The notes under the pieces were generated by a model, which did not search any database, was not told the DNA's origin, and worked only from the letters and a program-made list of their open reading frames with translations. DNA of 64,000 nucleotides from Salinimicrobium tongyeongense (lineage in GTDB: Bacteria; Bacteroidota; Bacteroidia; Flavobacteriales; Flavobacteriaceae), in assembly GCF_026109735.1 (NCBI RefSeq), contig NZ_CP069620.1, positions 2,232,001-2,296,000 of the forward strand, given 5' to 3'. Position numbers and translations under genes: made by a program. Shown one piece after another: positions 5,981 to 39,702 of this stretch. Each line of letters opens with the position of its first letter. The stretch's first letter is position 1.

Positions 5981-6829
5981 TTAGAAAATTTTCGACAACA
6001 TCTTTTTATAGCGGAGCCTTCTTATGAAGGCTCCTTCTTTTTTACCTACCAAAAATGGCATTTTTGAAGCCTTTGCCCTTTTATAGCCTTCCAGGTAATC
6101 TAGTGCAAGTGCGGCATTGCCTTTTTTAAGCGCCAGTTTGACCGAAGCGATCGCAGTAATGATCCAGCCGTAGCGCAGCTTGTAAAAAGCCTCTCCCTGT
6201 TTCCATTTTGCAGCTTTGTTATAGGTAAAACCGGTTGGCCGCAGGTGCTTTACGGCAAGGGAAGCATCAGTTTTGATTTCCCAGCCGTGAAATTGTGCCA
6301 GTAACTCGTCTACAGTGTCCCAGCCCATAGAAGGTTTAAGCCCCCCAATGTCGTTAAAACAGGCTTTTCGGTAAGCCTTTAGCGCCCCACGAATGTGGTC
6401 TTTCCCGGTCAAATTCTCAAGCCGCCAGGCTCCGTCTTTTTTGATATGGCAAAATCCGCCGGCCATTCCTGTCTTTGGGTCTGCCTCAAAATGCCTGCTA
6501 ATGGTTTCGAGGTAGTTTTCAGGAAAAATAAGATCGGCGTCAAATTTGCAGATAATGTCGTAGTTCTCGTCCAAATGCTTCAGGCCGTGATTGAAAGCCT
6601 TTATCACTTTGCTGCCGGGCAAATGTGCTTCGGAAGAAGTGGTGCTCACCAGGGAAATTAAGGGGTGCTTTTGAGCGTAATCTTTCACCACCTGTGCCGT
6701 CTCGTCTGAAGATTGATCGTCAACCACCACCAGTTTTGCTGGCTTCAGGCTTTGTTTACAAAGCGACTTCAGGCTTTGCCCTATAAATGCTGCCTCATTA
6801 TGTGCTGGGATGACGATGTAGAATCTCAA
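5981..6829 (-). CDS. Family 2 glycosyltransferase
   Basis: A 282-residue GT-A fold enzyme predicted to transfer a sugar from a nucleotide donor; the acceptor is unknown. The N-terminus FYIVIPAHNEAAFIG is the usual donor-binding strand and loop, followed by VVDDQSSDET near residues 36-45 and the metal-binding DxD as FDADL near 100. A WDTVDE block near 170 fits the catalytic-base region. No transmembrane segment is obvious. Downstream of the ketoacyl synthase / methyltransferase pair with a 122-base gap. Its 3' end carries a hairpin on the opposite strand and a copy of the dispersed palindrome. Confidence 0.85.
   Translation of the reverse strand: MRFYIVIPAHNEAAFIGQSLKSLCKQSLKPAKLVVVDDQSSDETAQVVKDYAQKHPLISLVSTTSSEAHLPGSKVIKAFNHGLKHLDENYDIICKFDADLIFPENYLETISRHFEADPKTGMAGGFCHIKKDGAWRLENLTGKDHIRGALKAYRKACFNDIGGLKPSMGWDTVDELLAQFHGWEIKTDASLAVKHLRPTGFTYNKAAKWKQGEAFYKLRYGWIITAIASVKLALKKGNAALALDYLEGYKRAKASKMPFLVGKKEGAFIRRLRYKKMLSKIF
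6013..6044 (+). terminator. Rho-independent terminator for pafA, inside the convergent gene
   Basis: GGAGCCTTC (6013-6021) pairs perfectly with GAAGGCTCC (6026-6034) around a TTAT loop and is followed by TTCTTTTTTT on the plus strand. It lies 33 bases past the phosphatase stop and within the 3' coding part of the minus-strand glycosyltransferase. Confidence 0.75.
6050..6066. repeat. Dispersed palindrome CAAAAATGGCATTTTTG (perfect)
   Basis: Perfect 8-base arms around one central G, inside the glycosyltransferase coding sequence, where it encodes KMPFL on the minus strand. Member of the family described in the findings. Confidence 0.7.
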
Positions 6830-6930
6830 TGTTATAATAACTTTCGGCTAAAATACGACTTCCATTAGTTTCCGCCGGAAGATGTATAAAGAGGAATGGA
6901 ACATTTAAAGCCAGCTCCCGAACGGGGTCC

Positions 6931-6947
6931 CAAAAATGGCATTTTCA
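6931..6947. repeat. Dispersed palindrome, two end mismatches
   Basis: CAAAAATGGCATTTTCA in the gap between the glycosyltransferase and the methyltransferase. The left arm is perfect; the last two bases of the right arm differ. Confidence 0.55.
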
Positions 6948-6951
6948 GCGA

Positions 6952-7473
6952 TCATTTTCTTTCGGCATATACGGCGTAATAGCGGGGCGTGAATTGCCTG
7001 AGCAGTGGGCGTATTCCGAGCTTCTTCACCGGATTGGTCCATTTATGGCGTTTCCTGATTTCCCAGCCTGCTTTCTCCAGCAGCCAGTCAAACTGCCAGT
7101 CTTCAAATTCGTGGTAGTGCCTGTCCCATTTATCGGTTTTGCTGCGATAGGCAGGAGAGAACCATAGATTTAAGGGGATTGTGGTCACCAGCTTTTTAGC
7201 TTGTATGTCGCGAAGCACGTTAAATGGTGCCACGAGGTGCTCAAAAATCTCGAAAGCAGTGACAATTTCGGCTGTAGAATTTTTCACGCTGCTGGTGTCG
7301 AGATCAAGGTCTTCCCCTCTGGTGTTTGTAACCTTATAGCCCTGTGCTTCCATGAGTTCACTGAACGGATTTCTCACGCCCAGGTCCAGGATACTGGCGG
7401 GAGCGGGAGCAGCCTTGTTCAAAAATTCTAAAGTGTGTTTGTAGCGCTTGTTCGGGAAGGTCTTCTCGTACAT
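6952..7473 (-). CDS. Class I SAM-dependent methyltransferase (putative)
   Basis: A short 173-residue protein with a methyltransferase-like core. ILDLGVRNPFSELMEAQGY around residues 34-52 corresponds to the SAM-binding first strand, though without the classic GxGxG, and TAFEIFEHL near 90-98 matches the motif seen in Ubi-type methyltransferases. Substrate unknown. Its ATG shares one base with the stop of the upstream ketoacyl synthase, so the two are translationally coupled. The degenerate glycine motif leaves room for a non-catalytic methyltransferase-fold protein. Confidence 0.75.
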   Translation of the reverse strand: MYEKTFPNKRYKHTLEFLNKAAPAPASILDLGVRNPFSELMEAQGYKVTNTRGEDLDLDTSSVKNSTAEIVTAFEIFEHLVAPFNVLRDIQAKKLVTTIPLNLWFSPAYRSKTDKWDRHYHEFEDWQFDWLLEKAGWEIRKRHKWTNPVKKLGIRPLLRQFTPRYYAVYAERK

Positions 7474-8531: not shown

Positions 8532-8715
8532 TCTGTGTCAGTTATAAAGTTGACAAGTATCAAAATTAAGAAATGTTATTGCGGTTTCGCTATATTTTTT
8601 ACATTAAAATTAACTTTTGCGACATCTCTAAAGGAAGTGGTAAAATCTTTGAATATGCTTAAAAGTTATAAAAATTTCTGCCTTTTTGTTAAGGTGCTGT
8701 TAATGGTGGTTTAGC

Positions 8716-8745
8716 TAAAAAAACCGGAGGTGATTTGCCTCCGGT
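8716..8745 (-). terminator. Rho-independent terminator of gcvP
   Basis: ACCGGAGG (8723-8730) and CCTCCGGT (8738-8745) form a perfect 8-base stem with a 7-base loop. Read on the minus strand it ends in a run of seven T, 11 bases after the gcvP stop. Confidence 0.85.
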
Positions 8746-8755: not shown

Positions 8756-11608
8756 TTAATCTTCCATATATTCTTCTATTGGAGCGCAGGTGCAAATGAG
8801 ATTTCGATCTCCAAATGCTTCATCTACCCGTCGAATAGAGGGCCAGAATTTATTTTCGGCCAGGTAATCCATAGGGAAGGCTGCTTTTTGCCTGCTGTAT
8901 GGGAAATTCCACTCGTTGGCAGTTAGCATGGCCAGGGTGTGAGGGGAATTCTTCAGTACGTTGTTAGGTTCATCTTCGGTAGCCTCATCAATTTCTTTGC
9001 GGATGGAAATAAGGGCATCGCAAAACCTGTCGAGTTCAGCTTTACTCTCGCTTTCGGTAGGTTCTATCATGAGGGTTCCGGCAACCGGGAATGACACTGT
9101 GGGAGCGTGGAAACCGTAATCGATGAGCCTTTTTGCAATATCGGTCACTTCAATTCCTTTAGCTTTAAACGGGCGGCAATCTACGATCATTTCGTGGGCA
9201 GCCCTTCCGCGTTCACCGCTGTAAAGTGTCTTGTAATGTTCTTCTATACGCGACTTGATATAGTTGGCGTTCAAAATGGCATATTGGGTCACCTTTTTCA
9301 GGCCTTCTGCGCCCAGCATTTTAATGTAGCCGTAAGAGATAAGGCAAACCAGGGCCGATCCCCATGGAGCAGAAGAAATTGCGGTTATGGCGTCATCGCC
9401 TCCGGTTTTTACTACCGGGTTTCCTGGAAGGAACGGCACCAGCTGTTTTGCAACGCATATGGGGCCAACTCCAGGGCCACCACCACCATGCGGTATGGCA
9501 AAGGTCTTGTGTAGATTGAGGTGGCAAACATCGGCACCAATCACTCCGGGGCTGGTAAGGCCTACCTGCGCGTTCATGTTTGCACCATCCATATAAACCT
9601 GCCCGCCGTACTGGTGAATAATATCAATAACTTCCACAATGGCCGATTCAAACACGCCGTGCGTAGAAGGATAAGTCACCATGAGTGCCGCCAGCTTATC
9701 TTTGTGTTTAAGGGCTTTTTCCTTAAGATCTTCAATGTCAATATTGCCAGATTCGGTAGATTTTGTAACCACCACTTTCATACCGGCCATCACTGCCGAT
9801 GCAGGGTTGGTGCCGTGTGCCGAAGACGGAATAAGACAAATGTTCCTGTGTGCTTCCCCGCGTGATTCGTGGTACTTGCGAATTACCATGAGCCCGGCGT
9901 ATTCTCCCTGGGCGCCCGAGTTTGGCTGTAGGGAAGTACCGGCAAATCCGGTGATTTCGGTGAGTTGTTCTTCCAGCCGCTTCAGTACAATTTGATAACC
10001 TTCGGCCTGGTCTACAGGAACAAAAGGATGCAGGTTGCCCCACTGCGGGTAACTTATGGGGAGCATTTCGGCAGCGGCATTCAGTTTCATGGTGCATGAA
10101 CCCAGCGAGATCATGGAGTGGTTAAGGGAAAGATCCTTGCGCTCCAGCTTCTTGATGTACCGCATCAACTCTGTTTCTGAATGATACGAGTTGAAAACCT
10201 CATTTTTAAGGAACTCGGTTTTGCGTTCTACTGAAGCAGGGATGTAGCTTTTTTCTGAAAGGTCAGTAGCTTTAATGGCGTCTTTACCGGCAGCTTCAGC
10301 AAAAATTGCGAGTATGGTATTAACATCATCAAGGTTTGTGGCCTCATTCAGGGAAATTGCCACTACATCTGAAGAAGGGTAGTAGAAATTCACCTCGTTT
10401 CGCTCTGCAATTTCCTTTACTCTCGCTGCTTCGGCTTTAATGAGTACAGTATCGAAAAATGTTGAATTAAGCTGAGAATATCCTAATTTTTCAACGTTTT
10501 CAGCAACAGTTGCGGCAAGGCTGTGAACCCTGTTCGCGATAAATTTGAGTCCGCGTGGGCCGTGGTAAACAGCGTACATTCCCGCCATTACAGCCAAAAG
10601 TACCTGTGCGGTACAAATATTAGAAGTGGCCCGGTCTCTTTTAATATGTTGCTCCCGGGTTTGAAGTGCCATTCGAAGGGCATAGTTTCCGTCGGTGTCT
10701 TTGGTAACACCAATGATGCGGCCGGGAATACTGCGTTTGTATTCTTCTTTTGTGGCAAAATATGCAGCATGAGGGCCGCCGTAGCCCAACGGAATTCCGA
10801 AGCGCTGGGTGGTTCCCACAACCACGTCTACTCCAAATTCTCCCGGAGCACGCAGTTTCACCAGGCTCAGAATATCGGCGGCAACTGCAGTTTTTATATT
10901 GTGTTCTTTAGCTTTGGCAACAAATCCTGAATAGTCGTAAACCTGGCCCATCCTTCCCGGATACTGTAAAAAAGCTCCAAAAAATTCTTCGGAAAAATCA
11001 AATTCCTCATGATCGCCAATAACAAGTTCAATGCCCAGGGGAATTGCACGGGTTTTAAGAAGGTCTATGGTTTGCGGAAGTACAACTTCAGAAACAAAGA
11101 ATTTATTTACGTTGCTTTTCTTTTGATCCCGTTCCCTCACTTCATAGAGCAGCGACATGGCTTCGGCAGCAGCGGTACCTTCATCAAGAAGGGAGGCATT
11201 GGCCAGTTCCATTCCGGTAAGATCGGCTATTACGGTCTGGAAGTTCAAAAGGGCTTCCAGCCTTCCCTGGGCAATCTCGGCCTGGTAAGGAGTGTAGGCG
11301 GTATACCATCCCGGGTTTTCCAAAATATTTCGCTGAATCACCGGGGGCGTAATAGATTGGTGGTAACCAAGCCCGATATATGTCCTGAAAACCTTATTTT
11401 TGGCAGCCAGGGAGATGCTGTGGGCAATATACTCATGCTCGCTCATGGCCGGGGCAAGCTCAAGATCTTTTTTTAGGCGAATATCATCGGGCAGGGTTTC
11501 GTAAATTAGTTGATCTATAGAGTCAACTCCAATAGTCTCCAACATATCCTTTAGATCATGTTCCCGGGGGCCTATATGACGTGTAGCAAAAGAAAAAGTA
11601 TTCATCAA
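8756..11608 (-). CDS. gcvP: Glycine dehydrogenase (decarboxylating), P protein
   Basis: Pyridoxal-phosphate enzyme of the glycine cleavage system: it decarboxylates glycine and passes the aminomethyl group to the lipoyl H protein. At 950 residues it is the full-length fused form, an inactive-like N-terminal half plus a catalytic C-terminal half. The cofactor lysine is Lys701 in [16 protein letters not shown]; the N-terminal landmark RHIGPREHD and the LGSCTMKLN block near 515 are also typical. The other glycine cleavage genes are not adjacent. Single-gene transcript by appearance, ended by the hairpin at 8716-8745. No glycine riboswitch was seen in the 112-base upstream gap. Confidence 0.97.
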
Positions 11609-11720: not shown

Positions 11721-12533
11721 GTGAAAAAAATATTTGATTTCTATATTAACAGTAGTATTCACGTGGCTTTGGCAGTCATTTCGCTTTGCCTTGTCACGAG
11801 CTTGCATTTTGGGGGGCAGGTTGAGCTTAGCCTGCTAATTTTTATCTTTTTTTCGGTGATTACGGGGTATAATTTTGTGAAGTACGCCGGAGTAGCCGGC
11901 CTGCACCACCGCACCCTCACCCGCGGTCTCCAAAACATCCAGATTTTTTCTTTTTTGTGTTTTTTAGGGTTGCTTGTTTCCGCCTTTTTTGTTGATGTAA
12001 AAATCCTGCTGCTAAGTGCCATTTTTGGATCCCTAACTGCGCTTTACGCCCTGCCGGTTTTTAGCAAAAAGAGAAATTTGAGAAGCATCTCGGGGCTCAA
12101 GATCTTTATTATAGGAATTGTTTGGGCCGGGGTGACGGTAATTCTCCCGGTGACAGGTGTCAAAAATGTCATTTTGGAAGACCTTTTCGTGGAGCTTTTT
12201 CAGCGGTTTTTGTTGGTGCTGGTCTGGATCCTGCCATTCGAGATAAGGGACCTGAAGTACGACCTCGAGCAACTTGGAACCCTTCCGCAGCGCATAGGGG
12301 TGACACAAACAAAAATTGTGGGTTTGCTGTTACTGGCAATCGTGATGGTGACAGATTTTTTGAAGGCTTCGGGGTCACAGGCCTCTTTTTATGCCCTTGT
12401 TCTTATGTGCCTTCTTACCGGCGCTTTTGTAATGGCCAGTAAAGAACACCGAAGCCGCTATTTTACTGCTTTCTGGGTAGAAGCCATTCCTGTCTTTTGG
12501 TTAATAATCCTTTGGGTGTTAAGCGTCTTTTGA
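11721..12533 (+). CDS. UbiA-like polytopic membrane protein
   Basis: A 270-residue, very hydrophobic protein with about eight or nine membrane helices. The loops GYNFVKYAG near residue 53 and PFEIRDLKYD near 178 sit where UbiA prenyltransferases carry their two Asp-rich motifs. The first is degraded (no NDxxD), so catalysis is doubtful. The frame extends to a TTG at 11700, but I prefer the GTG at 11721: it is preceded by GAGG at a suitable distance and the resulting MKKIFDFYINSSIHVALAV matches what I recall of relatives. The 3' end overlaps the convergent small gene by 15 bases. Confidence 0.7.
   Translation: MKKIFDFYINSSIHVALAVISLCLVTSLHFGGQVELSLLIFIFFSVITGYNFVKYAGVAGLHHRTLTRGLQNIQIFSFLCFLGLLVSAFFVDVKILLLSAIFGSLTALYALPVFSKKRNLRSISGLKIFIIGIVWAGVTVILPVTGVKNVILEDLFVELFQRFLLVLVWILPFEIRDLKYDLEQLGTLPQRIGVTQTKIVGLLLLAIVMVTDFLKASGSQASFYALVLMCLLTGAFVMASKEHRSRYFTAFWVEAIPVFWLIILWVLSVF
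12161..12177. repeat. Dispersed palindrome, one mismatch
   Basis: CAAAAATGTCATTTTGG within the UbiA-like gene, preceded by GTGT. It encodes KNVIL, a different frame from the copy at 6050. Confidence 0.6.
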
Positions 12534-12779: not shown

Positions 12780-12780
12780 G

Positions 12781-13424: not shown

Positions 13425-15461
13425 TTATTTCTTCGGAAGCAATCCTGCTCTTCGCAACAAGGCTTCGGGGGCAGCTTCTTTTCCTCTGAAGCGTTTGTAC
13501 AGGGTCAACGGATGCTCGGTGCCTCCCTGTGAAAGTATGGTTTCCCTGAATTTATTGGCGGTTTCCCTGTCAAAAATGCCATTTTCAGTAAAGAATTCAA
13601 AAGCATCGGCGTCCAGCACTTCTGCCCATTTATAGGAATAATAACCGGCGGCATAGCCACCCTGGAAAATATGTGAAAAGGAAGTGCTCATGCAGTTCTC
13701 TTTCACTTCGGGATAAAGTTGGGTGGGTTCAAAGGCTTTTTCTTCATGGGCCTTGACATCATCAATGCCCGAGGGGTCTTCGCTGTGCCAGCTCATGTCA
13801 AGCATTCCAAAGCTCAACTGCCTTAAGGTAGCCATGCCTTCGTGGAAAGCAGCCGAATCTTTGATCTTTTGGATAAGCTCATCGGGAATTACTTCGCCTG
13901 TCTCGTAGTGCGTGGCAAAAAGTTTTAGAGCTTCTTTTTCATAGCACCAGTTTTCGAGCACCTGGCTTGGCAGCTCAACAAAATCCCAGAAGACGTTAGT
14001 CCCCGAAATACTTGGGTAAACAGTATCTGCCAGCATGCCGTGCAGGGCGTGGCCAAATTCGTGGAAAAGGGTAGTGACCTCGTTAAAAGTGAGCAGCGAG
14101 GGCTCTTCGTCTGTAGGTTTTGTGAAGTTGCAAACTATGGAAATATGGGGGCGTTCATTTTTGCCCTTTTGGCGGTACTGAGATTTATAAGAAGTCATCC
14201 ACGCCCCGCCGCGTTTTCCCTCCCGTGGGTGGAAATCGGCATAGAACAGGGCCACTTCTTTATCTTCTTCATCTTTCACGCGGTATGTAAGTACTTCGGG
14301 GTGATAGGTTTCCACATCAAAAACCTGCTGAAACCTGAGGCCGTAAAGTTTTTCGGCTACCATGAAGACGCCTTTGATCACGTTGTTGAGCTCAAAATAA
14401 GGTTTGAGCTGTTCGTCATCGAGATCGAAGAGCTTTTGTTTCAGTTTTTCTGAATAATAGGCAGCATCCCATTTTTCTAGTCGGTCAATATTGTCAAGCT
14501 CGCGGGCAAAGTTTTCAAGTTCTGCGAATTCTTTTTCGGCTGCAGGTTTGGCTTTTTCTAAAAGTTCTTCCATGAAGGAATTTACTTTTTCAGGAGTTTC
14601 GGCCATACGTTCTTCAAGCTTGAAATGCGCATAGGTTGGGTAGCCCAAAAGGTTTGCTTTTTTGTGTCGCAGCTTGACAATTTGCAGCACATTCTCCCTG
14701 TTGTCAAGCTCGTCCCCATGAAAACCTTTGGCGCCAAAAGCAATGGCAAGCTCTTTGCGCAGCTCCCGGTTTTTGGCATATTTCATAAACGGGATGTAGC
14801 TTGGATAATGAAGGTTGAAGATCCAGCCTTCTTTGTTCTTCTTTTCTTTTGCCAGCATTTTTGCCGCAGTGCGGGCCCCTTTTGGCAGGCCTTCTAGATC
14901 TTCTTTCCTGGTGATGTGAAGTTCGTACCTGTTCGTTTCGGCCAGTACATTTTCTCCAAAGTTGAGGCTTAGGGCAGCCAGTTTTTTATCGAGTTCCCGC
15001 AATTCCTGCTTTTTGGCAGGATCAAGGCTGGCCCCATTGCGCTTAAACATTTTGTATTTCTTGTCCAGCAGGGTGCTTTGTTCCACGTTGAGGTTAAGGC
15101 TGTCTCTATTTTTATACACAGCTTTCACCTTCTGAAAAAGTACCGGGTCCTGGATAATGTCGTTTTTGAAATCGGTAAGCACCGGGGATATTTCCTGTGC
15201 TAGTTTCTGGATTTCATCATTGGTTTCGGCTGAATTGATGTTGAAGAAAATACTGGTGATCCTATCCAGCTGTTCTCCTGCAAATTCAAGGGCTTCCACG
15301 GTATTTTCAAAAGTTGGGGCTGCTGCTGAAGCTGTGATTTTTTTGATGTCTTTTTGTGCCCGCCCAATAGCTTCTTCTATGGCCGGTTTGTAATGCCCGG
15401 TCTTTATTTTCATAAATGGGGCAGTATTGAATTCTTGCAGTAATGGATTTCTTTCTGTCAT
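13425..15461 (-). CDS. M3 family metallopeptidase (oligopeptidase A / Dcp type)
   Basis: Zinc oligopeptidase of 678 residues, the usual length for this family. The HEFGH zinc motif is His467-His471 in TLFHEFGHALHG, with the third ligand region about 25 residues later, where the family has a conserved Glu (WDFVELPSQ). The N-terminal two thirds is the helical lid typical of M3 enzymes. No signal peptide is evident, so it is probably cytoplasmic and degrades short peptides; oligopeptidase A and dipeptidyl carboxypeptidase cannot be told apart here. Monocistronic in appearance. A dispersed palindrome copy lies in its 3' part. Confidence 0.92.
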   Translation of the reverse strand: MTERNPLLQEFNTAPFMKIKTGHYKPAIEEAIGRAQKDIKKITASAAAPTFENTVEALEFAGEQLDRITSIFFNINSAETNDEIQKLAQEISPVLTDFKNDIIQDPVLFQKVKAVYKNRDSLNLNVEQSTLLDKKYKMFKRNGASLDPAKKQELRELDKKLAALSLNFGENVLAETNRYELHITRKEDLEGLPKGARTAAKMLAKEKKNKEGWIFNLHYPSYIPFMKYAKNRELRKELAIAFGAKGFHGDELDNRENVLQIVKLRHKKANLLGYPTYAHFKLEERMAETPEKVNSFMEELLEKAKPAAEKEFAELENFARELDNIDRLEKWDAAYYSEKLKQKLFDLDDEQLKPYFELNNVIKGVFMVAEKLYGLRFQQVFDVETYHPEVLTYRVKDEEDKEVALFYADFHPREGKRGGAWMTSYKSQYRQKGKNERPHISIVCNFTKPTDEEPSLLTFNEVTTLFHEFGHALHGMLADTVYPSISGTNVFWDFVELPSQVLENWCYEKEALKLFATHYETGEVIPDELIQKIKDSAAFHEGMATLRQLSFGMLDMSWHSEDPSGIDDVKAHEEKAFEPTQLYPEVKENCMSTSFSHIFQGGYAAGYYSYKWAEVLDADAFEFFTENGIFDRETANKFRETILSQGGTEHPLTLYKRFRGKEAAPEALLRRAGLLPKK
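13571..13587. repeat. Dispersed palindrome, two end mismatches
   Basis: CAAAAATGCCATTTTCA, preceded by TGT, within the M3 peptidase gene; read on the minus strand it encodes ENGIF. Confidence 0.55.
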
Positions 15462-15645
15462 AGTCTTGAATTATTTTTGGCTAAAAAGGATGCCTTTTAA
15501 CGAAATTTTTAGAAAAAGCTCGGAAAGTTCTGAAATAATTCTTTACTTCACATTTCCAAAAAATTTAAGACAGTAGCTTTTAGGTTTTTGATTAATATAT
15601 TTAGAATGGTTAATAAATACTATTAAAACAGCAAAATGCTACTAG

Positions 15646-16226: not shown

Positions 16227-17387
16227 TTATTCACTTATTACTCTAATCGTCTTTTTTACTGCTTCCGCAATTTTCCTGGCTTCAGAAAGATTGGCGTTTA
16301 CTATGGTCACGTGGCCCATTTTTCTGAAAGGCCGGGTGATCTTTTTTCCGTAGATATGGGGGGTGACGCCTTTGAGTTTCATGATCTTTGAAATGTTCTC
16401 GTAAACCACGTTCCCTGAAAAGCCTTCTTCGCCCACCAAATTCACCATCACACCGCCGGCCTTGCTCTCGGTCTCACCTAAAGGAAGGTCAAGAATGGCC
16501 CTTAAATGCTGTTCAAACTGGTTGGTAAAGGCGGCTTCTATGCTGTAATGCCCGCTGTTGTGTGGCCTGGGAGCAACTTCGTTCACTAAGATCTCATCTT
16601 CCTGCGTCTGGAACATTTCAACAGCCAAAAGCCCGATATGCTCGTAGGCGCGGGATACATTTTCGGCCACTTTTCTGGCCTTTTCGGCTACGGCAGCATC
16701 AATGCGCGCCGGACAAATCACGTATTCTACCTGGTTGGCTTCAGGATGAAACTCCATTTCAACCACAGGGTAGGTTTTTACTTCTCCAGACGGGTTGCGG
16801 GCCACGATTACCGCCAGTTCATTCTTAAAAGGGATGAGATCTTCGGCAATACAGGCAGTTTCGGGTAAATCTTCGGCGGTTTGAAGGTCTTTTACAACTG
16901 CAACTCCTTTGCCATCGTAACCTCCCGTTGTGCTTTTCCACACAAGAGGCAGGGAAATTTCCCCTTTTTGAAGAGCTTCCAAAAATGCCATTTTTGAAGG
17001 GTATTTCTGAAAGTTTGCCGTGGGGATTTCGTGGCTCCTGAAGAAATCTTTTTGTACAGCTTTGTCCTGTATCTTCTTCAGGGTTTTGGAGGAAGGATAG
17101 ACTTTTTTTCCTTCAGATTCTAATTTTTCAAGAGCTTCAACATTAACGGCCTCAATCTCAAAGGTGAGCACATCGGCTTTTCTTCCGAAGTTCACCACCG
17201 TGTCAAAATCCATGAGATCGCCCCGGGTAAATTCGTCGCAGGCAATCCTGCAGGGCGCTTCGGCACTGGGATCGAGCACAATAGTGCGAATGTCAAACTT
17301 TCGGGTTTCGTAGAGGAGCATTTTGCCCAGCTGGCCACCACCAAGTATCCCTAGGGTGAAATCTGAAGAAAAATAGTTGATCATCAA
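16227..17387 (-). CDS. purK: N5-carboxyaminoimidazole ribonucleotide synthase
   Basis: ATP-grasp enzyme making N5-CAIR from AIR, bicarbonate and ATP, directly before PurE in the pathway and in the operon. The 386 residues begin with a Rossmann-like LGILGGGQLGKML. The ATP-grasp core includes KSTTGGYDGKGV near 150, and NEVAPRPHNSGHY near 270 is the PurK signature. Two adjacent ATG codons (17387, 17384) could both serve as start. A perfect copy of the dispersed palindrome lies within it. Confidence 0.97.
   Translation of the reverse strand: MMINYFSSDFTLGILGGGQLGKMLLYETRKFDIRTIVLDPSAEAPCRIACDEFTRGDLMDFDTVVNFGRKADVLTFEIEAVNVEALEKLESEGKKVYPSSKTLKKIQDKAVQKDFFRSHEIPTANFQKYPSKMAFLEALQKGEISLPLVWKSTTGGYDGKGVAVVKDLQTAEDLPETACIAEDLIPFKNELAVIVARNPSGEVKTYPVVEMEFHPEANQVEYVICPARIDAAVAEKARKVAENVSRAYEHIGLLAVEMFQTQEDEILVNEVAPRPHNSGHYSIEAAFTNQFEQHLRAILDLPLGETESKAGGVMVNLVGEEGFSGNVVYENISKIMKLKGVTPHIYGKKITRPFRKMGHVTIVNANLSEARKIAEAVKKTIRVISE
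16980..16996. repeat. Dispersed palindrome CAAAAATGCCATTTTTG (perfect)
   Basis: Perfect 8-base arms around a central C, inside purK; on the minus strand it encodes KMAFL. Confidence 0.7.
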
Positions 17388-20244: not shown

Positions 20245-20270
20245 TTTTAGGATTATTTTTTAAACTCATA

Positions 20271-28029: not shown

Positions 28030-29385
28030 ATGCGGCTACATTTTATAGCAATTGGGGGAAGTGCCATGCATAACCTTGCCCTTGCTCTTCACGAAAAAGG
28101 ATATAAAATCACAGGTAGTGATGATGTCATTTATGAACCTTCCAAAACCCGATTAAACAACAAAGGCCTGCTGCCAAAGCAATTTGGGTGGTTTCCCGAA
28201 AAAATCACTAAAGACCTCGATGCTGTTATCCTTGGGATGCATGCCCGGGAAGATAATCCCGAATTGGCAAGAGCAAAAGAACTGGAACTTCCTATATATT
28301 CTTATCCCGAATTTTTATTCGAACAATCTAAAGAAAAGACTAGAGTGGTTATTGGCGGTTCTCATGGCAAAACTACAATAACCTCAATGATTCTACACGT
28401 GATGAATTACCATCACAAGAATGTGGATTTTATGGTAGGTGCTCAATTGGAAGGATTTGAGAATATGGTACACTTAACCCAGGAAAATGATTTTATTGTG
28501 CTTGAGGGGGATGAATATTTATCCTCTCCTGTAGACAGGCGTCCAAAGTTTCATCTTTATAAACCTAACATCGCTTTACTTAGCGGGATCGCCTGGGATC
28601 ATATCAATGTTTTTCCCACTTTTGAAGAATATCTGGAGCAATTCAGGATTTTCATAGACTCCATAGTTAAAGGTGGCATTCTGGTGTATAATGAAGAGGA
28701 TGAACACCTGAAAAGGCTAGTTGAAGAATCCACAAATCCTATTAGAAAACATCCGTACAAAACTCCCCATTACAGGGTTGAAGAGGAAATGACGCTTCTG
28801 CAAACTCCTGAAGGGGACATGCCCGTTTCAGTTTTCGGTGAACACAACCTGCAAAACTTAGCAGGCGCAAAATGGGTTTGTCAGCATATGGGTATCGACG
28901 AAGAAGATTTTTACGAAGCTATAGGCTCTTTTAAAGGTGCTTCCAAGCGACTTGAAAAAATTGTGGAAACCAAAAATACCGTAGTATTTAAAGATTTTGC
29001 CCATAGTCCCTCAAAGGTGATGGCAACTACTAAGGCCGTGAAGGAACAGTATCCGGGAAGGCAGGTGGTCGCATGCCTTGAACTGCATACTTATAGCAGC
29101 TTAAATGCCGATTTTCTTAAGCAATACAAATCTTCTCTGGATGCAGCCGATGAAGCCGTGGTTTTCTTTTCGCCCGAAGCAGTAGAGCATAAGAGGCTTG
29201 AACCTATTTCAAAAGAGCAGATCTTTGATGCCTTTGCCCGAAAAGACCTTAGGGTTTACACCAATCCGCTCGAGTTTAAGGCGTATTTACAGGAACAACC
29301 TTATGCTCAAAAAGTGCTGTTGTTAATGAGCAGTGGTAATTACGGAGGTCTGGATTTTGACGAGATCAAAAACTGGATCTCCTAA
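28030..29385 (+). CDS. mpl: Mur-ligase family protein, Mpl (peptidoglycan recycling)
   Basis: UDP-N-acetylmuramate:tripeptide ligase type, which reattaches recovered murein peptides. The 451 residues show the MurC/Mpl N-terminal fold MRLHFIAIGGSAMHNLA, ATP loop GGSHGKTT at 109-116, an EGDEY block near 166 and a C-terminal domain with DFAHSPSKV. The lack of the D-glucose/UDP-binding GTxGKT form of MurC and the HFIAIGGSAM start favour Mpl over MurC. The frame is open to a TTG at 27970, but the ATG at 28030 gives the expected N-terminus. A copy of the dispersed palindrome starts at its stop codon. Confidence 0.88.
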   Translation: MRLHFIAIGGSAMHNLALALHEKGYKITGSDDVIYEPSKTRLNNKGLLPKQFGWFPEKITKDLDAVILGMHAREDNPELARAKELELPIYSYPEFLFEQSKEKTRVVIGGSHGKTTITSMILHVMNYHHKNVDFMVGAQLEGFENMVHLTQENDFIVLEGDEYLSSPVDRRPKFHLYKPNIALLSGIAWDHINVFPTFEEYLEQFRIFIDSIVKGGILVYNEEDEHLKRLVEESTNPIRKHPYKTPHYRVEEEMTLLQTPEGDMPVSVFGEHNLQNLAGAKWVCQHMGIDEEDFYEAIGSFKGASKRLEKIVETKNTVVFKDFAHSPSKVMATTKAVKEQYPGRQVVACLELHTYSSLNADFLKQYKSSLDAADEAVVFFSPEAVEHKRLEPISKEQIFDAFARKDLRVYTNPLEFKAYLQEQPYAQKVLLLMSSGNYGGLDFDEIKNWIS

Positions 29386-29398
29386 AATGGCATTTTTG
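29382..29398. repeat. Dispersed palindrome, one mismatch
   Basis: CTAAAATGGCATTTTTG overlaps the mpl stop codon, and its right arm supplies the TTG of the likely radC promoter. Confidence 0.6.
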
Positions 29399-32149: not shown

Positions 32150-32698
32150 ATGAAGATGTCCTGGAGAAAATGTTGTTCTAAAATGGCCTTTTTGACACTC
32201 CTCGTGGCCTGTTTTTCCTGTGTTAAAGATGTTGATCTTGACCAGGCAAACGAGATAGTGCTGTCTCCCGAAGCAGCCGTAGACCTTATCTTTTTTGACC
32301 TTGTTGCCAGTGAATTTACCACTGTGTCTGGCAGTGGCGTAACGGCAAAAGATGAGACTCGCCTCGATTTTCTCGATGATGATTATATACAAAATGACCT
32401 GGTGCGGGCCGATTTCAACTTCAGGTTCACCAACACCTTCGAGAGTCCTTTAAATGCCATCATCAGGTTCCTTTCGCCGGGAAACGGGGTGCAGCATACC
32501 GTGGTAGTTCCTATTCCGCAGGGAAGTTTAGAAGAACCGGCGGTGGTAGATTACACCGAAATCATTAACGAAGCACAAATAACACGAATAAGAAGGAGTA
32601 TAAAAATGTCTGTTGAAGTCACCAGGCATGACCCTTCGGCGGTTGCAGGTTCTTTGCAGCTGGCCTCAAAAGGGTTTTTCTACTTTGAATTCCAATGA
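32150..32698 (+). CDS. Putative lipoprotein, unknown function
   Basis: A 182-residue protein with a basic start, a hydrophobic stretch and Cys residues at 21 and 24 (LLVACFSCVKD), one of which is the likely lipidation site. The mature part is acidic at first (DVDLDQANEIVL), then beta-rich with an FNFRFTNTF strand and PIPQG. I do not recognise a named family. Its end overlaps the DUF5723 gene by four bases (ATGA), which indicates translational coupling and a shared envelope task. Confidence 0.75.
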   Translation: MKMSWRKCCSKMAFLTLLVACFSCVKDVDLDQANEIVLSPEAAVDLIFFDLVASEFTTVSGSGVTAKDETRLDFLDDDYIQNDLVRADFNFRFTNTFESPLNAIIRFLSPGNGVQHTVVVPIPQGSLEEPAVVDYTEIINEAQITRIRRSIKMSVEVTRHDPSAVAGSLQLASKGFFYFEFQ

Positions 32699-34089
32699 TG
32701 AGAATATTGTTTGTCCTCTTCATATTGACTTTTTCTTCGGGTATAATGGCCCAAAACAAACAGCTGCTGTACAATTTTGACGATTTGCCGCAAAGCCTCC
32801 TGTTAAACCCCGGTGCCGAAACCAATTTTGACATGCATATTGGGCTTCCATTTCTGTCTCAAATCCATTTGTCGGCAGGCTCTTCGGGGGTGAATATGTA
32901 CGATATTTTCAGGGAAGGTGAGGGTTCAGTAAATGACAGGATTAGAAATTCGCTGCACAAGCTTACCCGAAAAGATTTTTTTACCGTGAACCAGCAGCTT
33001 GAGATCTTTTCAATTGGATGGCGCGACAGGCAAAGAAGGTATTATACGGCCGGGATTTACCAGGAATTTGATGCCTTTGTGTACTTTCCCAAAGACCCTG
33101 CAGTGCTGGCTTATGAAGGGAATAAAAATTACATAGGGCGAAATTTCGATTTTTCGGATGCTGCTTTCACTGCCGAGGTACTCAACGTTTTCCACCTGGG
33201 TTTTACCAATTATTATTCTGAAGATTTTAACTACGGCTTCCGCGGAAAAATTTATTCCGGAATTTTTAATGCCCACAGTGTTGATAATACCGGGATTTTT
33301 AGAACCGAGCTTTCCCCTGAAGGCCCCAACCTTTACCGGCATTATATGTCGCAGGTCGATATCTTGATAAACACCGCCGGGTGGGACGAACTCACAGATT
33401 CTGATGCTACCGACAGGCAGCTGATGGCGAGCTTCTTAAAAAAGGCATTTTTGGGAGGTAATATTGGGCTGGGCCTCGATGCCGGCTTCACCTGGTACCC
33501 TTCAGATCAATACAGGGTGACAGCCAGCCTGCTGGATATAGGTTTTATGCGCCAAACCAAAAATGTTGAAAACTACAGGTACTACGGAGATTACCAAACC
33601 GACGGGATCGAGCTGCTTTTCCCTGGTACGCGCGAGTACTGGGATGAATGGGAAGACAACTTGGACAAAAACCTGAAAGATGAAACCCTAACCAATTCTT
33701 ACACCACCTGGCGCCCGGTAAAGTTCAATGCCTCAATAGATTTTGGGTTTGCTGAAAATGCCGAACCCTGTAACTGCTACCGCCCCATGGGCCGAAGAAG
33801 GTATTTTAACCATCTTGGAGCCCAGTTTTTTGCCGTAAAACGGCCTAGGGGCCTCAATTATGCCACCACGCTTTATTTTGATAAAACCTTTAACGACAAT
33901 TTCAGGGGGAAGATCACCTACACTGCCGATTCCTACTCGTTTTCAAATATAGGGCTCCTGTTTTCTGCCAGACTTTCCAATTTTAATGTTTATCTTGCTG
34001 CAGATAATCTGCTGGATTATACAAATCTTGCAAAGGCGCAAAATGCCTCGGTGCAGCTTGGGGTCCAGCTAATGTTTAGCAGGGAATGA
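32695..34089 (+). CDS. DUF5723 family outer-membrane-like protein
   Basis: A 464-residue protein with a signal peptide (to about residue 19, GIMAQ) and then a run typical of DUF5723: LLLNPGAET, GLPFLSQIHLSAGSSGVN and repeated amphipathic strands, ending FNVYLAADNLLD and QLGVQLMFSRE. The pattern suggests a PorP-like or other beta-barrel outer membrane protein. Function unknown. Two ATG codons in tandem (32695, 32698). Four-base overlaps with the genes on both sides tie the three into one coupled unit. Confidence 0.8.
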   Translation: MMRILFVLFILTFSSGIMAQNKQLLYNFDDLPQSLLLNPGAETNFDMHIGLPFLSQIHLSAGSSGVNMYDIFREGEGSVNDRIRNSLHKLTRKDFFTVNQQLEIFSIGWRDRQRRYYTAGIYQEFDAFVYFPKDPAVLAYEGNKNYIGRNFDFSDAAFTAEVLNVFHLGFTNYYSEDFNYGFRGKIYSGIFNAHSVDNTGIFRTELSPEGPNLYRHYMSQVDILINTAGWDELTDSDATDRQLMASFLKKAFLGGNIGLGLDAGFTWYPSDQYRVTASLLDIGFMRQTKNVENYRYYGDYQTDGIELLFPGTREYWDEWEDNLDKNLKDETLTNSYTTWRPVKFNASIDFGFAENAEPCNCYRPMGRRRYFNHLGAQFFAVKRPRGLNYATTLYFDKTFNDNFRGKITYTADSYSFSNIGLLFSARLSNFNVYLAADNLLDYTNLAKAQNASVQLGVQLMFSRE

Positions 34090-34961
34090 GAACCTTTTTT
34101 TTCTTTTTTGTTTTTTTGATCGGCATCACCGGGAACATTTTTGGGCAGGATGCCAATAAGTATCACTATGTGCTTGTACCACAGGAATTTGAATTCCTGA
34201 AGCACCCAAACCAGTACCAGTTAAACGCCCTCACCGCCTTTCTTCTCGAAAAGTACGGTTTTGAGGCCCTTTACGGGGAGAAGACTCCGGCAAATGTGGG
34301 GCTTTGCGACGTGCTCAAAGCCAATGTTCACAATGACTCGGGGATATTTCGTTCAAAACTCTATGTGACCCTCGAAAACTGCCAGGGAGAGGTGTTGTTT
34401 ACTTCAAAAACCGGCACGAGCAGGGAAAAGAATTTCAAAAAATCATATCATGAGGCTTTGAGGGAAGCCTTTACTTCTTTTGAAGGCCTAAAAGAAGGCA
34501 CAGAACTTATAAAAAGCGGGGTTACTGTTGCTGAAAATTCTTCGGAAAATGATCCTGCTGAAGTGGTGATAGATCCTGTGCCTGCGGCCAGAGATCTTCA
34601 GGAAAAACCTTCAGAAGTCATTGTAGACCCTGTGGTTACTTCCGAAGAAATGGAAAAAGCTGCTAAAGCATCCCCGGCAGTTCCTGAAGCAGTTCAGAAA
34701 AACAAAAATTTGCAGTTCGTGAACGGCGCCATTACCTATAAGCTGGTGAAAACACCTACAGGTTACGAGCTTTTCAGGGAAGGCGAGCCGGGTAAATTCG
34801 GAACTTTGCTGAAGTCGGGAGGCGGAGACAACTATTTGTACTCTTCAAAAAACATCTCCGGAAATGCCTTTTTTGACACCCGTGGAAACCTGGTTGTTGA
34901 ATACCTTGAACCTAATTCCCAGCAACTCATTAGCGTAAAATATACGGCGAAAGCTCAATAA
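34086..34961 (+). CDS. Exported protein of unknown function
   Basis: A 291-residue protein with a strong Phe-rich signal peptide (MRTFFFFFVFLIGITGNIFG). The first half holds HYVLVPQEFEFLKHPNQYQL and KLYVTLENCQGEVLFTSKTG, reminiscent of small envelope domains in flavobacteria but not a family I can name. A Pro/Glu/Val-rich linker lies at about 150-215, then a second beta-rich domain (ITYKLVKTPTGYELFREG). ATGA overlap with DUF5723 upstream; the 3' end overlaps the convergent rarA by 7 bases. Confidence 0.75.
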   Translation: MRTFFFFFVFLIGITGNIFGQDANKYHYVLVPQEFEFLKHPNQYQLNALTAFLLEKYGFEALYGEKTPANVGLCDVLKANVHNDSGIFRSKLYVTLENCQGEVLFTSKTGTSREKNFKKSYHEALREAFTSFEGLKEGTELIKSGVTVAENSSENDPAEVVIDPVPAARDLQEKPSEVIVDPVVTSEEMEKAAKASPAVPEAVQKNKNLQFVNGAITYKLVKTPTGYELFREGEPGKFGTLLKSGGGDNYLYSSKNISGNAFFDTRGNLVVEYLEPNSQQLISVKYTAKAQ

Positions 34962-36336: not shown

Positions 36337-36353
36337 CAAAAATGTCATTTTTG
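36337..36353. repeat. Dispersed palindrome CAAAAATGTCATTTTTG (perfect)
   Basis: Perfect 8-base arms around a central T, in the 175-base gap between rarA and the rhomboid gene; preceded by GCGT and followed by GGAGG. Confidence 0.7.
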
Positions 36354-37157: not shown

Positions 37158-37163
37158 ACTTCG

Positions 37164-37901
37164 CTAATCCAGTCTCTGCCGCATCACCTCATAAAGAAAA
37201 GCACCGCAGGCTACAGATACATTTAAACTGCCAATACTGCCCTGCATGGGGAGTTTGGCTTTGTCGTCAACCAGCTTGAGCACAGATTCAGAAATACCCT
37301 TACCTTCATTTCCCATTACCAGGGCGGTTGGTTCTTTAAAATCTACAGAATACAGCAGTTTATCTGTCTTTTCTGTGGCAGCCACCACTTTAATACCCGA
37401 GCCCTGCATGTAGAAAATGGCATCTTTGATATGGTCTACCTTTATAAGCGGAATCTTAAAGATCGCCCCGGCAGAGGTTTTCACCGTATCGGCTGTAACC
37501 GGAGCACCCCCTTTTTTCTGAATTATGATCGCGTTCACACCGCAACATTCGGCAGTTCTTATAATCGCACCAAAATTGCGCACATCATCAACCTGGTCGA
37601 GTAGGAGGAAGAGGGGAGCAGCCTCCTGCTGAAGTGCTTTTTCAACTTCAGAAGCCAAATCGGCGAATTGCACGGGAGAGATCTTTGCCACAACACCCTG
37701 GTGGTTTCCTTTTACCAGTCGGTTTAATTTTTCTACCGGCACGTAAGAAATATTGTAGTCGCCAGATTTGGTCTTTTGCTGTAACTCCTGGAATAACTGT
37801 CCGCTAAGGCCTTTTTGAACAAAGATCTTATCTATGGTCTCATTATTCTGAATGGCTTCAATAACGGCCCTAATTCCAAAAATGGTGGTTGTATCTTTCA
37901 T
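37164..37901 (-). CDS. rlmB: 23S rRNA (guanosine-2'-O)-methyltransferase RlmB
   Basis: SpoU/TrmH-family methyltransferase of 245 residues that modifies G2251-type positions in the peptidyl-transferase region. The N-terminal TTIFGIRAVIEAI is the substrate-binding domain. The knotted SPOUT core shows LLLDQVDDVRNFGAIIRTAE near 95, ALVMGNEGKGIS near 195 and the last motif LPMQGSIGSLNVSVACGAFLYE. A TATCTTTG box stands at 37906-37913, only 4 bases before the ATG, which suggests a very short or absent leader. Confidence 0.94.
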   Translation of the reverse strand: MKDTTTIFGIRAVIEAIQNNETIDKIFVQKGLSGQLFQELQQKTKSGDYNISYVPVEKLNRLVKGNHQGVVAKISPVQFADLASEVEKALQQEAAPLFLLLDQVDDVRNFGAIIRTAECCGVNAIIIQKKGGAPVTADTVKTSAGAIFKIPLIKVDHIKDAIFYMQGSGIKVVAATEKTDKLLYSVDFKEPTALVMGNEGKGISESVLKLVDDKAKLPMQGSIGSLNVSVACGAFLYEVMRQRLD

Positions 37902-37905
37902 ACTG

Positions 37906-37913
37906 CAAAGATA
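37906..37913 (-). promoter_or_regulatory. -7 box abutting the rlmB start
   Basis: TATCTTTG on the minus strand, then CAGT and ATG. If used, transcription would begin at or within a few bases of the start codon. No good -33 TTG is seen. Confidence 0.4.
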
Positions 37914-37953
37914 GAGATAATTGAATGGCTGCGGCGGACTCTTAAAAATTACT

Positions 37954-39702
37954 TCATTCCCGAGCCTGAACTGAAAAAACCTTTTTTACAGAAACAGGTT
38001 CTCCCGAATTTGTAAAACCTTCCAGGTGAATTTCATAGTTCCCGGGAACATCGGAAGTGAAGAATTCAATAACTTCTTCGGAAGCATCTATTTCTACTGA
38101 AGGTTTCCACAGAAGTTGAGTCCTTAGATCTGGAATCCTTGACAGCGGGTTACCTGAAGAAGCGGCATAAGATTGCTTAAAGTAATTCTTGCCGGCTTCA
38201 GGAAGTTTCATTGCCACTCTTTTGATGTAATCCTGGTTTAAAGATTCAGAAAAATTTCCCTCAATAGTTTCAACATCAACAATTCCGGAGAAAATATGAG
38301 AGCCCAAAAAGAAGTTATCCCTCAGGATCTTTATGCTTTTCACGTATTTAGCCGGGTAGTTGATCAAGAGATCGTGATCTTGCACCATAGCGCCGTCTAC
38401 TATAAGCAAAGCCGGAAGATAAAAATTTGTTGCGCCGTCTGTCTGGTTGATGACGAACTCAGATCCGTCTTTGCCCTTTGCCAGGTGGGCAAACATGACA
38501 ATTTCAACCATGGTTTCTTTTATAGTGGGAAACCGGGTGTAATCATCGAGATTATAAACAGTTGGTTCCTGAGAGTAAAAAGGTTCTTTTTCAGCTAGAA
38601 TTTTTAATGTGTCGGGTTTAACGCTGTAATAGGCATTTTCAATCTGAACCTGTACGCTGCGGTCAAGAATATTCTCTTTCATGGCAGGGGTTATCCTGAA
38701 GTTTGCGAACTCCAGTTCAGGAGCATTGATTTGAGGTAAGGGGTCGAGCCGTATCTCGTAATTTTCGGCTTCACCTCCCAAAATCTGCATCAAAGCTTCG
38801 GGGGTGTCGTAGGCTTCATCTAAATTGAGATAGAATTTTCCCTGCTTGTTTGTAGTTGCGATCTTGAGAATGTAATCTTTACCCGGAAGGGAGAAAGCCA
38901 GTTTCTTACCGGCTAAATTGCGGGCTGCATCCGGCGTATTTGCCACAATTCGGCCAGAGATGAGGTTTCCACGGGCTTCAGGAAGAAAGACCGAATCTGT
39001 ATTTTGACGTGCGGCAGGAAAGGAAAGGTCAAAATCTTCAGCAGTAAATTTCTTCGGAATAGAAATGCTGTCTCTTTTTCTAACGGAAAGAGAATACTCA
39101 CCGGCAACTCCTTCGAGCTTTAGAGCTACTTTCTCTCTCCTGTCAAAAATGGCATTTTTCAGTATGATTTTCACAGGATTCTTGCTGTCTGTAACAGGAG
39201 TTTCAGTTGATTCAAAATTTTGAAAAATGGGCAGATTTCCTTCAGAAGTTGACAAAATAGCCGAAGAATCGCCACGGTAAGGGTTAATTATCGCAATATC
39301 CCCGGCAAAATACGACTTGTAATTCCTCATCCAGTTTGAATAGCTCAATAATTTGTAATTTCCGGAAGGTACCGTGGTGGGAATAAAGAAATCTCCCTGT
39401 GCCTGGCCATTTTTCAGCAAAAGTTTATGCTTAAAAATGCTATTTCCATCTTCGCTTATTAATTCTACATAAGCAACTTTGCTTATTTCGCTGAATTCTT
39501 CTGTATCCTTTTCAAGAGTGTAGAGCTTGTAGTACAGATATTCTCCCGGAAAAAGCAACGAAGAATTGTAATGGACAAAGATCTTTTCCTGCGGAACTTT
39601 TTCGAGCAGTGCAGCTCCGGCTGAACTATCTACTGCCTGCGCAGAAAAATGCAGCGGGAGAAAGAAACAGGTAAGTGTGAAAAAAAGGTATTTCATGTTC
39701 AT
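37954..39702 (-). CDS. Exported MG2/TonB-plug-like protein of unknown function
   Basis: About 582 residues with a signal peptide (MKYLFFTLTCFFLPLHFSAQ). The N-terminal part resembles macroglobulin-like beta domains (VPQEKIFVHYNSSLLFPGEYLYYKLYT, FIPTTVPSGNYKLLSYSNWMRNY). Near 440-490 there is a plug-like stretch, LLIVDGAMVQDHDLLINYPAKYVKSIKIL, as in TonB-dependent receptor plugs but with no barrel after it. The track frame starts at 39741, but ATG at 39702, one base after the DUF4249 stop, gives a proper signal peptide; 39696 is an alternative. Last gene of the DUF4249 operon. A palindrome copy lies inside. Confidence 0.75.
   Translation of the reverse strand: MNMKYLFFTLTCFFLPLHFSAQAVDSSAGAALLEKVPQEKIFVHYNSSLLFPGEYLYYKLYTLEKDTEEFSEISKVAYVELISEDGNSIFKHKLLLKNGQAQGDFFIPTTVPSGNYKLLSYSNWMRNYKSYFAGDIAIINPYRGDSSAILSTSEGNLPIFQNFESTETPVTDSKNPVKIILKNAIFDRREKVALKLEGVAGEYSLSVRKRDSISIPKKFTAEDFDLSFPAARQNTDSVFLPEARGNLISGRIVANTPDAARNLAGKKLAFSLPGKDYILKIATTNKQGKFYLNLDEAYDTPEALMQILGGEAENYEIRLDPLPQINAPELEFANFRITPAMKENILDRSVQVQIENAYYSVKPDTLKILAEKEPFYSQEPTVYNLDDYTRFPTIKETMVEIVMFAHLAKGKDGSEFVINQTDGATNFYLPALLIVDGAMVQDHDLLINYPAKYVKSIKILRDNFFLGSHIFSGIVDVETIEGNFSESLNQDYIKRVAMKLPEAGKNYFKQSYAASSGNPLSRIPDLRTQLLWKPSVEIDASEEVIEFFTSDVPGNYEIHLEGFTNSGEPVSVKKVFSVQARE
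39144..39160. repeat. Dispersed palindrome, one mismatch
   Basis: CAAAAATGGCATTTTTC, preceded by CTGT, within the exported MG2/plug-like gene; the minus strand encodes KNAIF. Confidence 0.6.

Follow-up and report, generated by a model that had tools for sequence, protein, structure and literature searches.

The window analysed here is a stretch of 64,000 nucleotides in a 3.51-Mb chromosome of Salinimicrobium (Flavobacteriaceae), a genus of marine bacteria. Scattered over the window are copies of a palindrome, CAAAAATGNCATTTTTG, with a rigid 17-bp core of the form CAAAAATG-S-CATTTTTG, which lie both within and between genes:

6050..6066, perfect core, within a gene of the glycosyltransferase family (5981-6829, minus strand), matrix score 30.6
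6931..6947, two-mismatch core, intergenic, matrix score 31.1
9271..9287, weak site with four mismatches, within a gene, matrix score 17.7
12011..12027, weak site with four mismatches, within a gene, matrix score 17.5
12161..12177, one-mismatch core, in an open reading frame with a below-cut-off UbiA-family match, matrix score 33.0
13571..13587, core with two mismatches, within a peptidase M3 gene
16980..16996, perfect core, in a purK-like gene, matrix score 39.6
19899..19915, three-mismatch site, within a gene
20234..20250, three-mismatch site, at the 3' end of a gene
29382..29398, one-mismatch core, overlaps a Mur-ligase-family gene at its stop, matrix score 28.4
32178..32194, two-mismatch core, close to a gene start, matrix score 27.6
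33437..33453, two-mismatch core, within a gene, matrix score 29.4
34859..34875, three-mismatch core, within a gene, matrix score 26.2
36337..36353, perfect core, between a divergent MgsA-type AAA ATPase gene and a rhomboid gene, matrix score 37.1
37412..37428, weak copy with three mismatches
39144..39160, one-mismatch core, within a gene, matrix score 26.5

The eight strong copies named in a preliminary description of this DNA are all found at the coordinates claimed, with the mismatch numbers claimed. Five of the seven weaker copies it proposed (19899, 32178, 33437, 34859, and 37412) match with two to three mismatches; the copy near 9281 corresponds to the four-mismatch site at 9271, and the one near 49682 yields a weak score at 49684 with the first, permissive matrix only. 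The ribosomal block (49.8-64 kb), described as free of full copies, contains no matrix site scoring above 16 versus 4.3 expected at the genome density. That a 17-mer of this kind should not recur by chance is borne out by 16 copies in the window with up to three mismatches, compared with a mean of 1.6 and a largest value of 5 in 100 dinucleotide shuffles. Genome-wide, the frequency is far above expectation, with 683 matches at up to two mismatches versus 8 for the reversed word, and 365 at up to one mismatch (about 104 per Mb) versus 1 for the reversed pattern. At a matrix score above 16, 464 kb of sequence contained 129 sites versus 3 in the reversed and 3 in the Markov control, and 400 kb outside the training data contained 131 versus 4 reversed, and the weight matrix gives an estimate of approximately 1,056 sites in the genome, or 1 per 3.3 kb. 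Base composition is ruled out as the cause by the reversed-word, shuffle, and Markov controls. The span of about 33 kb originally given for the palindrome does hold copies; its true range is larger, extending through most of the genus with about 1,000 sites in this genome alone.

The spacing between the half-sites is exactly one base, as AAAATG-N1-CATTTT occurs 100 times and the versions with gaps of 0 and of 2-10 bases do not occur. Within the core, the T preceding the central G (0.78) and the two outermost positions (C 0.68, A 0.75) are the least constant. The site exceeds 17 bp: an A-tract lies 8-12 bp beyond the core, a weaker one follows at -23 to -20, and flank composition is near background past these phased A-tracts (to about -23). 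The inner tract is present in the source genome (A 0.58/0.61 at -9/-8 in the extended logo) and again at 71 exact-core sites from other Salinimicrobium loci (0.75/0.66), but 15 matches to the exact core from other organisms lack it (0.23/0.30). The outer tract peaks at -22, with A at 0.43 and 0.37 in two sets from the source genome and 0.56 at other Salinimicrobium loci; it lies outside the matrix and was therefore not selected by it. With the sites masked, the half-site CAAAAATG alone is still in excess (176 versus 78 in the reversed control).

A recurring word of this type could be a by-product resembling the HIP words, created without functional selection by a methyltransferase recognizing part of it together with biased repair. 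Deviations from the palindrome are indeed commonest at the outermost core positions, and one-nucleotide deviations of HIP1 are biased to the ends according to PMC4390886. Outside the sites, the five-base centre TGNCA occurs 6452 times versus 3994 reversed and AATGNCATT 82 versus 48, counts that include any dinucleotide bias. However, the information reaches A-tracts 8-12 and approximately 22 bp outside the core in a rigid geometry, whereas usual methyltransferase sites are far shorter. Outside the matrix sites, AAATGNCATTT is found only 4 times versus 10 in the reversed control, and ATGNCAT 468 versus 400 times. Such an origin appears improbable.

Over the sampled chromosome the copies are Poisson-spread (variance/mean 0.96), with no origin or terminus bias seen, and this even spread rules out a terminus- or origin-bound site of the MatP/matS macrodomain type. 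Site density increases with the GC content of 10-kb bins (n = 86; rho 0.48), low-GC bins holding few sites; since density rises with GC and not AT (rho +0.48), a site for an H-NS-like xenogeneic silencer is ruled out as well. Clusters of sites gave no clue to the binder. The strong sites (n = 199) comprise 104 in genes, fewer than expected, 81 intergenic, and 14 at stretch edges. The coding sites are distributed as 58, 28, and 18 over the three frames, in agreement with the earlier observation that copies are read in more than one frame, and protein constraint is ruled out by the use of three frames, the many intergenic sites, and the synonymous conservation described below. Between tandem genes, intergenic sites are shifted toward the upstream stop, with a mean relative position of 0.37 (n = 52). 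This enrichment close to gene 3' ends is what intrinsic terminators, or other RNA hairpins sharing a loop by chance, would produce; part of the intergenic subset shows arm pairing beyond the core, at -5 (z 3.1), -7 (z 2.0), and -4 (z 1.9), and G002, a motif-poor relative, has hairpins with a similar centre (L295). Against this, 104 of the 199 strong sites are within genes, no Rfam family reaches the gathering score in the window, and arm covariation is absent at -1 to -3, whether pooled or coding. The arms are independent at most flank positions (at -1, 56 of 113 paired versus 56.5 expected), so the site is not generally an RNA hairpin and we consider this origin quite unlikely, but part of the copies may double as terminators because of the intergenic pairing.

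Twelve Salinimicrobium genomes were compared, nine of them motif-rich, including the source genome, and three motif-poor (G001, which is 74% complete, G002, and G004). In all eight motif-rich relatives the identity of core synonymous codons is above the codon-matched expectation (z 2.4-5.5):

G003, 89/94 versus 69.3 expected
G005, 72/85 versus 50.4
G006, 72/86 versus 50.1
G008, 68/84 versus 48.5
G010, 70/80 versus 47.2
G007, 68/86 versus 48.7
G011, 63/82 versus 47.0
G009, 26/34 versus 19.4

Flanks 16-80 bp away are not raised in these relatives (z -2.8 to +1.3). Orthologous copies are thus kept while neighbouring synonymous sites drift, which answers the question of whether positions are conserved between species. 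On both frequency and conservation, the palindrome withstood the refutation tests proposed in the preliminary description. The site at 16980 has zero to two mismatches in seven of the eight motif-rich relatives, four in G009, and nine in G004, and that at 13571 has one or two in six of the eight and three or four in the other two. Core identity is also raised in motif-poor G002 (36/48 versus 26.3, z 3.0). A model in which the word is frozen in one lineage is exceeded in four of the eight relatives (z 2.4-3.1) and not clearly in the other four (z 0.8-1.8). For the intergenic copies of the window, a plain identity test did not support conservation, as identical core bases were below expectation in seven of nine species and slightly above it in G003 and G005. 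As the word is kept where the protein code permits drift, a DNA-binding protein is the most likely reader.

Copy numbers among the relatives are 0, 9, 42, and 122-416, with 0-42 in the three early-branching Salinimicrobium. Outside the genus no genome exceeded 6 copies in a class search of 396 genomes, and a de novo search for palindromes in 100 kb from each of four genomes, drawn from three sister genera, found none that were dense. The six to seven mismatches in G002, G001, and G004 are not proof of gain, as approximately 75% identity would by our estimate give about that number neutrally; gain versus loss therefore rests on the tree and the frozen-lineage model, with which a site older than the G002 split may be compatible. 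A viral source was rejected, a viral collection having the exact core in 21 stretches with one site each (a raw count that may include chance matches), and cassette arrays as the origin of the dispersed copies led to nothing. The word is nevertheless present in some cassette-array repeats of G002, G003, G007, and the source genome, as might be seen if the copies were relics of a short mobile element (REP- or MITE-like) scattered by transposition. Such relics seem very unlikely, given that the flanks are near background beyond the phased A-tracts. Of 31 outgroup comparisons at copies within genes, 21 align ungapped across the site with 3-10 mismatches and therefore show no insertion at that place; the remaining 10 were gapped and did not enter the mismatch figures, and the alignment may have missed a large insertion. 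The literature matches listed contain no description of the motif.

The palindrome may be the DNA site of a homodimeric, lineage-specific candidate protein acting chromosome-wide, an interpretation to which we give about an even chance. From the sequence, we infer that a putative sequence-specific protein would bind as a symmetric dimer or dimer of dimers, contacting the 17-bp core and the outer A-tracts and bending or wrapping at least about 41 bp, perhaps about 60 bp. Such a protein would have become committed to the palindrome within Salinimicrobium, with about 1,000 sites then built and kept chromosome-wide. The sites are constrained at the DNA level, lie in genes and gaps, and are nearer gene ends than promoters, so a chromosome-wide task is likely; this could be nucleoid organization or the marking of own DNA rather than single-promoter regulation, and the data fit either of the two alike. 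Among the roles first proposed, a nucleoid or chromosome-organizing site fits best and the analogy to HIP1 is loose. No gain of an HU-family protein tracks the motif, with two to three matches in each of the 12 genomes, and an extra HU protein is ruled out as the binder. A ParB/Noc paralogue was likewise rejected, ParB_N being single in 11 of 12 genomes and missing from incomplete G001.

The main competing explanation is a palindromic uptake or exchange tag: the cells would favour word-bearing DNA for import or recombination, and selection or molecular drive would let the word accumulate, as for the neisserial DUS. The palindrome is lineage-specific, high-copy, and kept at orthologous positions and gene ends, and PMC2397512 and PMC3630211 describe the same of DUS, which often sit at gene ends. 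As with DUS, the surroundings evolve slightly faster in some comparisons (flank z -2.8 for G010, -2.6 for G002, and -2.2 for G004). Higher-GC 10-kb bins are richer in sites and low-GC bins poor. A preference for own DNA is reported for Riemerella columbina, also of the Flavobacteriaceae, in PMC7965970. A long comEC open frame is present in 10 of the 12 genomes, including all nine motif-rich ones (648-690 aa); motif-poor G004 has a broken comEC remnant at the conserved position with conserved neighbours, and incomplete G001 a below-cut-off match only. However, G002 has few sites despite its long comEC frame, and PF00437, the family of type IV pilus/T2SS ATPases, passes its cut-off in only one of 12 genomes (G003), which is not the source genome. 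The uptake signals known so far are asymmetric and operate with type IV pili, whereas this site is a dyad with a fixed N1 spacing. An uptake tag is thus a tentative alternative. Slightly more doubtful is its specific form, a genus-born, symmetric self-recognition word with phased A-tracts and about 1,000 sites, for which ComEC would be used without type IV pili; if true, it would have no palindromic precedent among the uptake-type signals known to us, and no precedent of any kind in Bacteroidota.

Few nucleoid or uptake signals of global reach are known to us from Bacteroidota. A selected signal of about a thousand sites in one genus, which the examined genomes of sister genera lack, would allow the birth of a genome-wide recognition system to be watched, and the palindrome points to a putative new sequence-specific chromosome protein or DNA-identity system. 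Since the motif can be synthesized as an oligonucleotide, it should be possible to fish out its reader protein directly.

The closest known systems each share some of these properties. With matS/MatP, Noc, and parS/ParB the likeness is that of palindromic protein sites scattered on the chromosome, but the Salinimicrobium palindrome has about 1,000 sites that favour neither origin nor terminus, and no accompanying ParB paralogue. Like HIP1 and the alternate HIPs of cyanobacteria, it is over-represented genome-wide and lineage-specific. HIP-type words, however, are short and GC-rich, have a link to methyltransferases, and are present at about 500-2500 per Mb (PMC4390886), whereas the palindrome has a 17-bp AT-rich core with A-tract flanks and, at about 104 per Mb with up to one mismatch, lies below HIP density. 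With the DUS of Neisseria and the USS of Pasteurellaceae it shares high copy number, restriction to one lineage, and retention at orthologous positions (PMC2397512, PMC3630211). The palindrome differs from both in its dyad symmetry, in the finding of the pilus ATPase in one of 12 genomes, and in its density of about one matrix site per 3.3 kb. The A-tracts are a further point of resemblance, as USS likewise have A/T tracts beside the core.

The first reading of the window, which reported a dispersed 17-bp palindrome recurring too often for chance, is genuine and understated the signal. The word CAAAAATGNCATTTTTG has 16 matches in the window at up to three mismatches, compared with a mean of 1.6 and a maximum of 5 in shuffled sequences. 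The Salinimicrobium tongyeongense chromosome, a single contig of 3,509,958 bases of which the window forms bases 2,232,001–2,296,000, holds 683 matches at up to two mismatches (8 for the reversed pattern) and 365 at up to one (1 for the reversed pattern). With a weight matrix, 260 sites scored above 16 in 864 kb (41 evenly placed stretches, window included), corresponding to ~1,056 per genome, and 400 kb kept out of training gave 131 matrix sites compared with 4 in the reversed sequence.

The matrix, built from 464 kb, shows conserved bases beyond the 17-bp core, mirrored on both sides (negative positions lie outside the core).

Flank preferences in the weight matrix (464 kb)
Position -1: T or C, hardly any A or G
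Position -3: T preferred
Position -5: G/C
Position -6: A/G
Positions -12 to -8: A-tract

Other Salinimicrobium loci show the same flanks at 71 sites with an exact core (A 0.75 at -9 and 0.66 at -8), where they were not selected on save at position -1 and where some sites may be orthologous to those of the own genome; 15 exact-core matches in other organisms are without A-tract flanks (0.23 and 0.30, respectively). Beyond the matrix span lies an outer A-rich stretch at -23 to -20, where the frequency of A at -22 is 0.56 for the 71 other-locus sites and 0.43 (128 sites) and 0.37 (130 sites) for two own-genome sets; the A-tracts are centred near -22, -10, 3, 13, 26, and 38. The inverted half-sites AAAATG/CATTTT are separated by one base in 100 cases and by 0 or 2–10 bases in none. 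In the 864 kb sample the same pair is also found 15 times with gaps of 13–15, any other gap apart from 1 giving 0–1. Lone half-sites CAAAAATG are over-represented with the sites masked (176 versus 78 reversed). TGNCA is likewise in excess outside the sites (6452 versus 3994 reversed, raw counts that include dinucleotide bias), as a by-product of HIP-like methylation might produce; a site this long argues against that model, which we consider improbable. Variation in one arm is independent of the other at most flank positions, the trace expected of a symmetric DNA-binding protein. Arm pairing appears in the intergenic subset at -5 (z 3.1), -7 (z 2.0), and -4 (z 1.9), and part of the copies perhaps double as terminators.

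Along the chromosome the scatter of sites is Poisson-like (variance/mean 0.96, gap CV 0.89 in the 864 kb sample). Density, which the preliminary description proposed to map against origin and terminus, shows no visible trend around either (~1.6 and ~3.3 Mb, positions inferred from skew), and the ribosomal block, in which no full copy had been seen, indeed contains 0 sites versus 4.3 expected. Across 86 bins of 10 kb, density climbs with GC content (rho 0.48, p 4e-6), the word itself being AT-rich. Relative to genes, taken from simple ORF calls, sites scoring above 20 are distributed as follows, those in tandem gaps being shifted toward the upstream stop.

Placement of 199 sites scoring above 20
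Genes: 104, 168 expected by length
Tandem gaps: 52, 11.6 expected
Convergent gaps: 19, 5.5 expected
Divergent gaps: 10, 5.2 expected
Stretch edges: 14

Conservation between species was assessed at 37 sites in 104 kb by comparing synonymous core codons with identical codons elsewhere in the same alignments. Core codons are kept above expectation in all eight motif-rich relatives (z 2.4 to 5.5; species not mutually independent), in line with the earlier claim that protein constraint does not explain the copies, and codons 16–80 bp from the core show no excess retention (z -2.8 to +1.3). A first run limited to the window gave z 3.1–3.8 in seven relatives. Among the motif-poor genomes, G004 (26/45 versus 24.5) and G001 (6/11 versus 5.1) show no excess and G002 is somewhat raised (36/48 versus 26.3, z 3.0), with flank z values of -2.2, +1.1, and -2.6, respectively. 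A cruder identity test of intergenic DNA in the window, with few alignable bases, lent conservation no support: identical core bases fell below expectation in seven of nine species and slightly above it in G003 and G005. Orthologous coding 17-mers lie within three mismatches in 81/117 cases in motif-rich relatives and 1/21 in the motif-poor genomes, gapped rows (34/151 and 10/31, respectively) being left out. Since neutral divergence in the latter would by rough estimate produce about 6 mismatches, the 1/21 shows that the site is absent there but says nothing on whether it was gained or lost. A rough model with one lineage frozen is exceeded by z 2.4–3.1 in four relatives, the other four giving only 0.8–1.8. 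A decayed ancestral site is compatible with G002 (z 1.2) and fits G004 less well (z -1.5).

The element is private to one genus among the genomes examined. At up to one mismatch the 12 Salinimicrobium genomes contain 365 (own), 416, 196, 174, 171, 171, 149 (a 75%-complete genome), 128, 122, 42, 9, and 0 (74%-complete) copies, compared with 0–5 in each of 48 other Flavobacteriales genomes; a class-wide search of 396 genomes found more than 6 in none outside Salinimicrobium. Exact YCAAAAATGNCATTTTTGR occurs in at least 120 stretches of named genomes, and among the matches listed 65 of 80 are labelled Salinimicrobium, the remaining 15 being single sites under other labels. No comparable palindrome was found in 100 kb from each of four genomes of three sister genera, picked by SecY similarity. 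In a tree with two sister-genus genomes as root, computed from 36,637 aligned columns that include only 7 kb from G001 and 8 and 14 kb from the outgroups, G004 branches first, followed by G002 with G001, then G009, then the remainder. The three motif-poor genomes are therefore early branches, and a single gain would most simply account for the occurrence of the motif in the genus.

The chief rival reading, in which the word is a tag for DNA exchange, draws on comEC. Each of the nine motif-rich genomes has a long open comEC frame; in motif-poor G004 the gene is a broken remnant whose neighbours are conserved, as judged from the own genome and from G002, G003, and G004. However, G002 has few sites despite a long comEC frame, a pilus/T2SS ATPase passes the cut-off in G003 only, and known uptake signals are asymmetric; we regard an exchange tag as unlikely. 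The long frame is present in 10 of the 12 genomes, the own genome included; the G004 remnant lies at ~6700–7560 of locus L396 (contig C11), where gene order is otherwise conserved.

Several other repeats were encountered. G002 carries a cassette-like array (L241, contig C15, 1–15124; L288, contig C8) of small, unrelated ORFs, mostly on one strand, including lipoprotein-like and HTH proteins, with a HigB-type toxin gene adjoining an HTH gene. Its spacers are repeats of ~50–140 bp in several families, many containing the palindrome, and one repeat has further copies elsewhere: a single one each in the own genome (2928378) and G003, and two in G007. Judged from its ORF and repeat layout, the array resembles integron-type arrays. 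The REP-like repeats of locus L254 (1230–1720) contain inverted segments of the GGGCTTTAGCCC/GGCTAAAGCC type; five palindrome sites above 16 (851–2034) surround them, and similar stretches stand in series in G008 (C10, 668076–669643). A second inverted repeat, built around ACAGGT-N7-ACCTGT, is over-represented in 400 kb of the own genome (L031–L050; 6 copies versus 0.05 expected), and the ~40 bp at window 15582–15621, upstream of an ORF, recur in several congeners, often serially ~1.6 kb apart.

The palindrome itself is a rigid, symmetric element under DNA-level selection, spread evenly along the chromosome. From these features we infer a homodimeric protein that would recognise the site, bend or wrap DNA there, and be used over the whole chromosome. 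Two candidate readers were rejected: an HU-family newcomer (two full matches in every genome, a third, partial, in G007, G009, and G011) and a ParB/Noc paralogue (one ParB in 11 of 12 genomes). The element works like a genome-wide protein-recognition word, and by the features tested it is distinct from HIP, DUS, matS, and parS.
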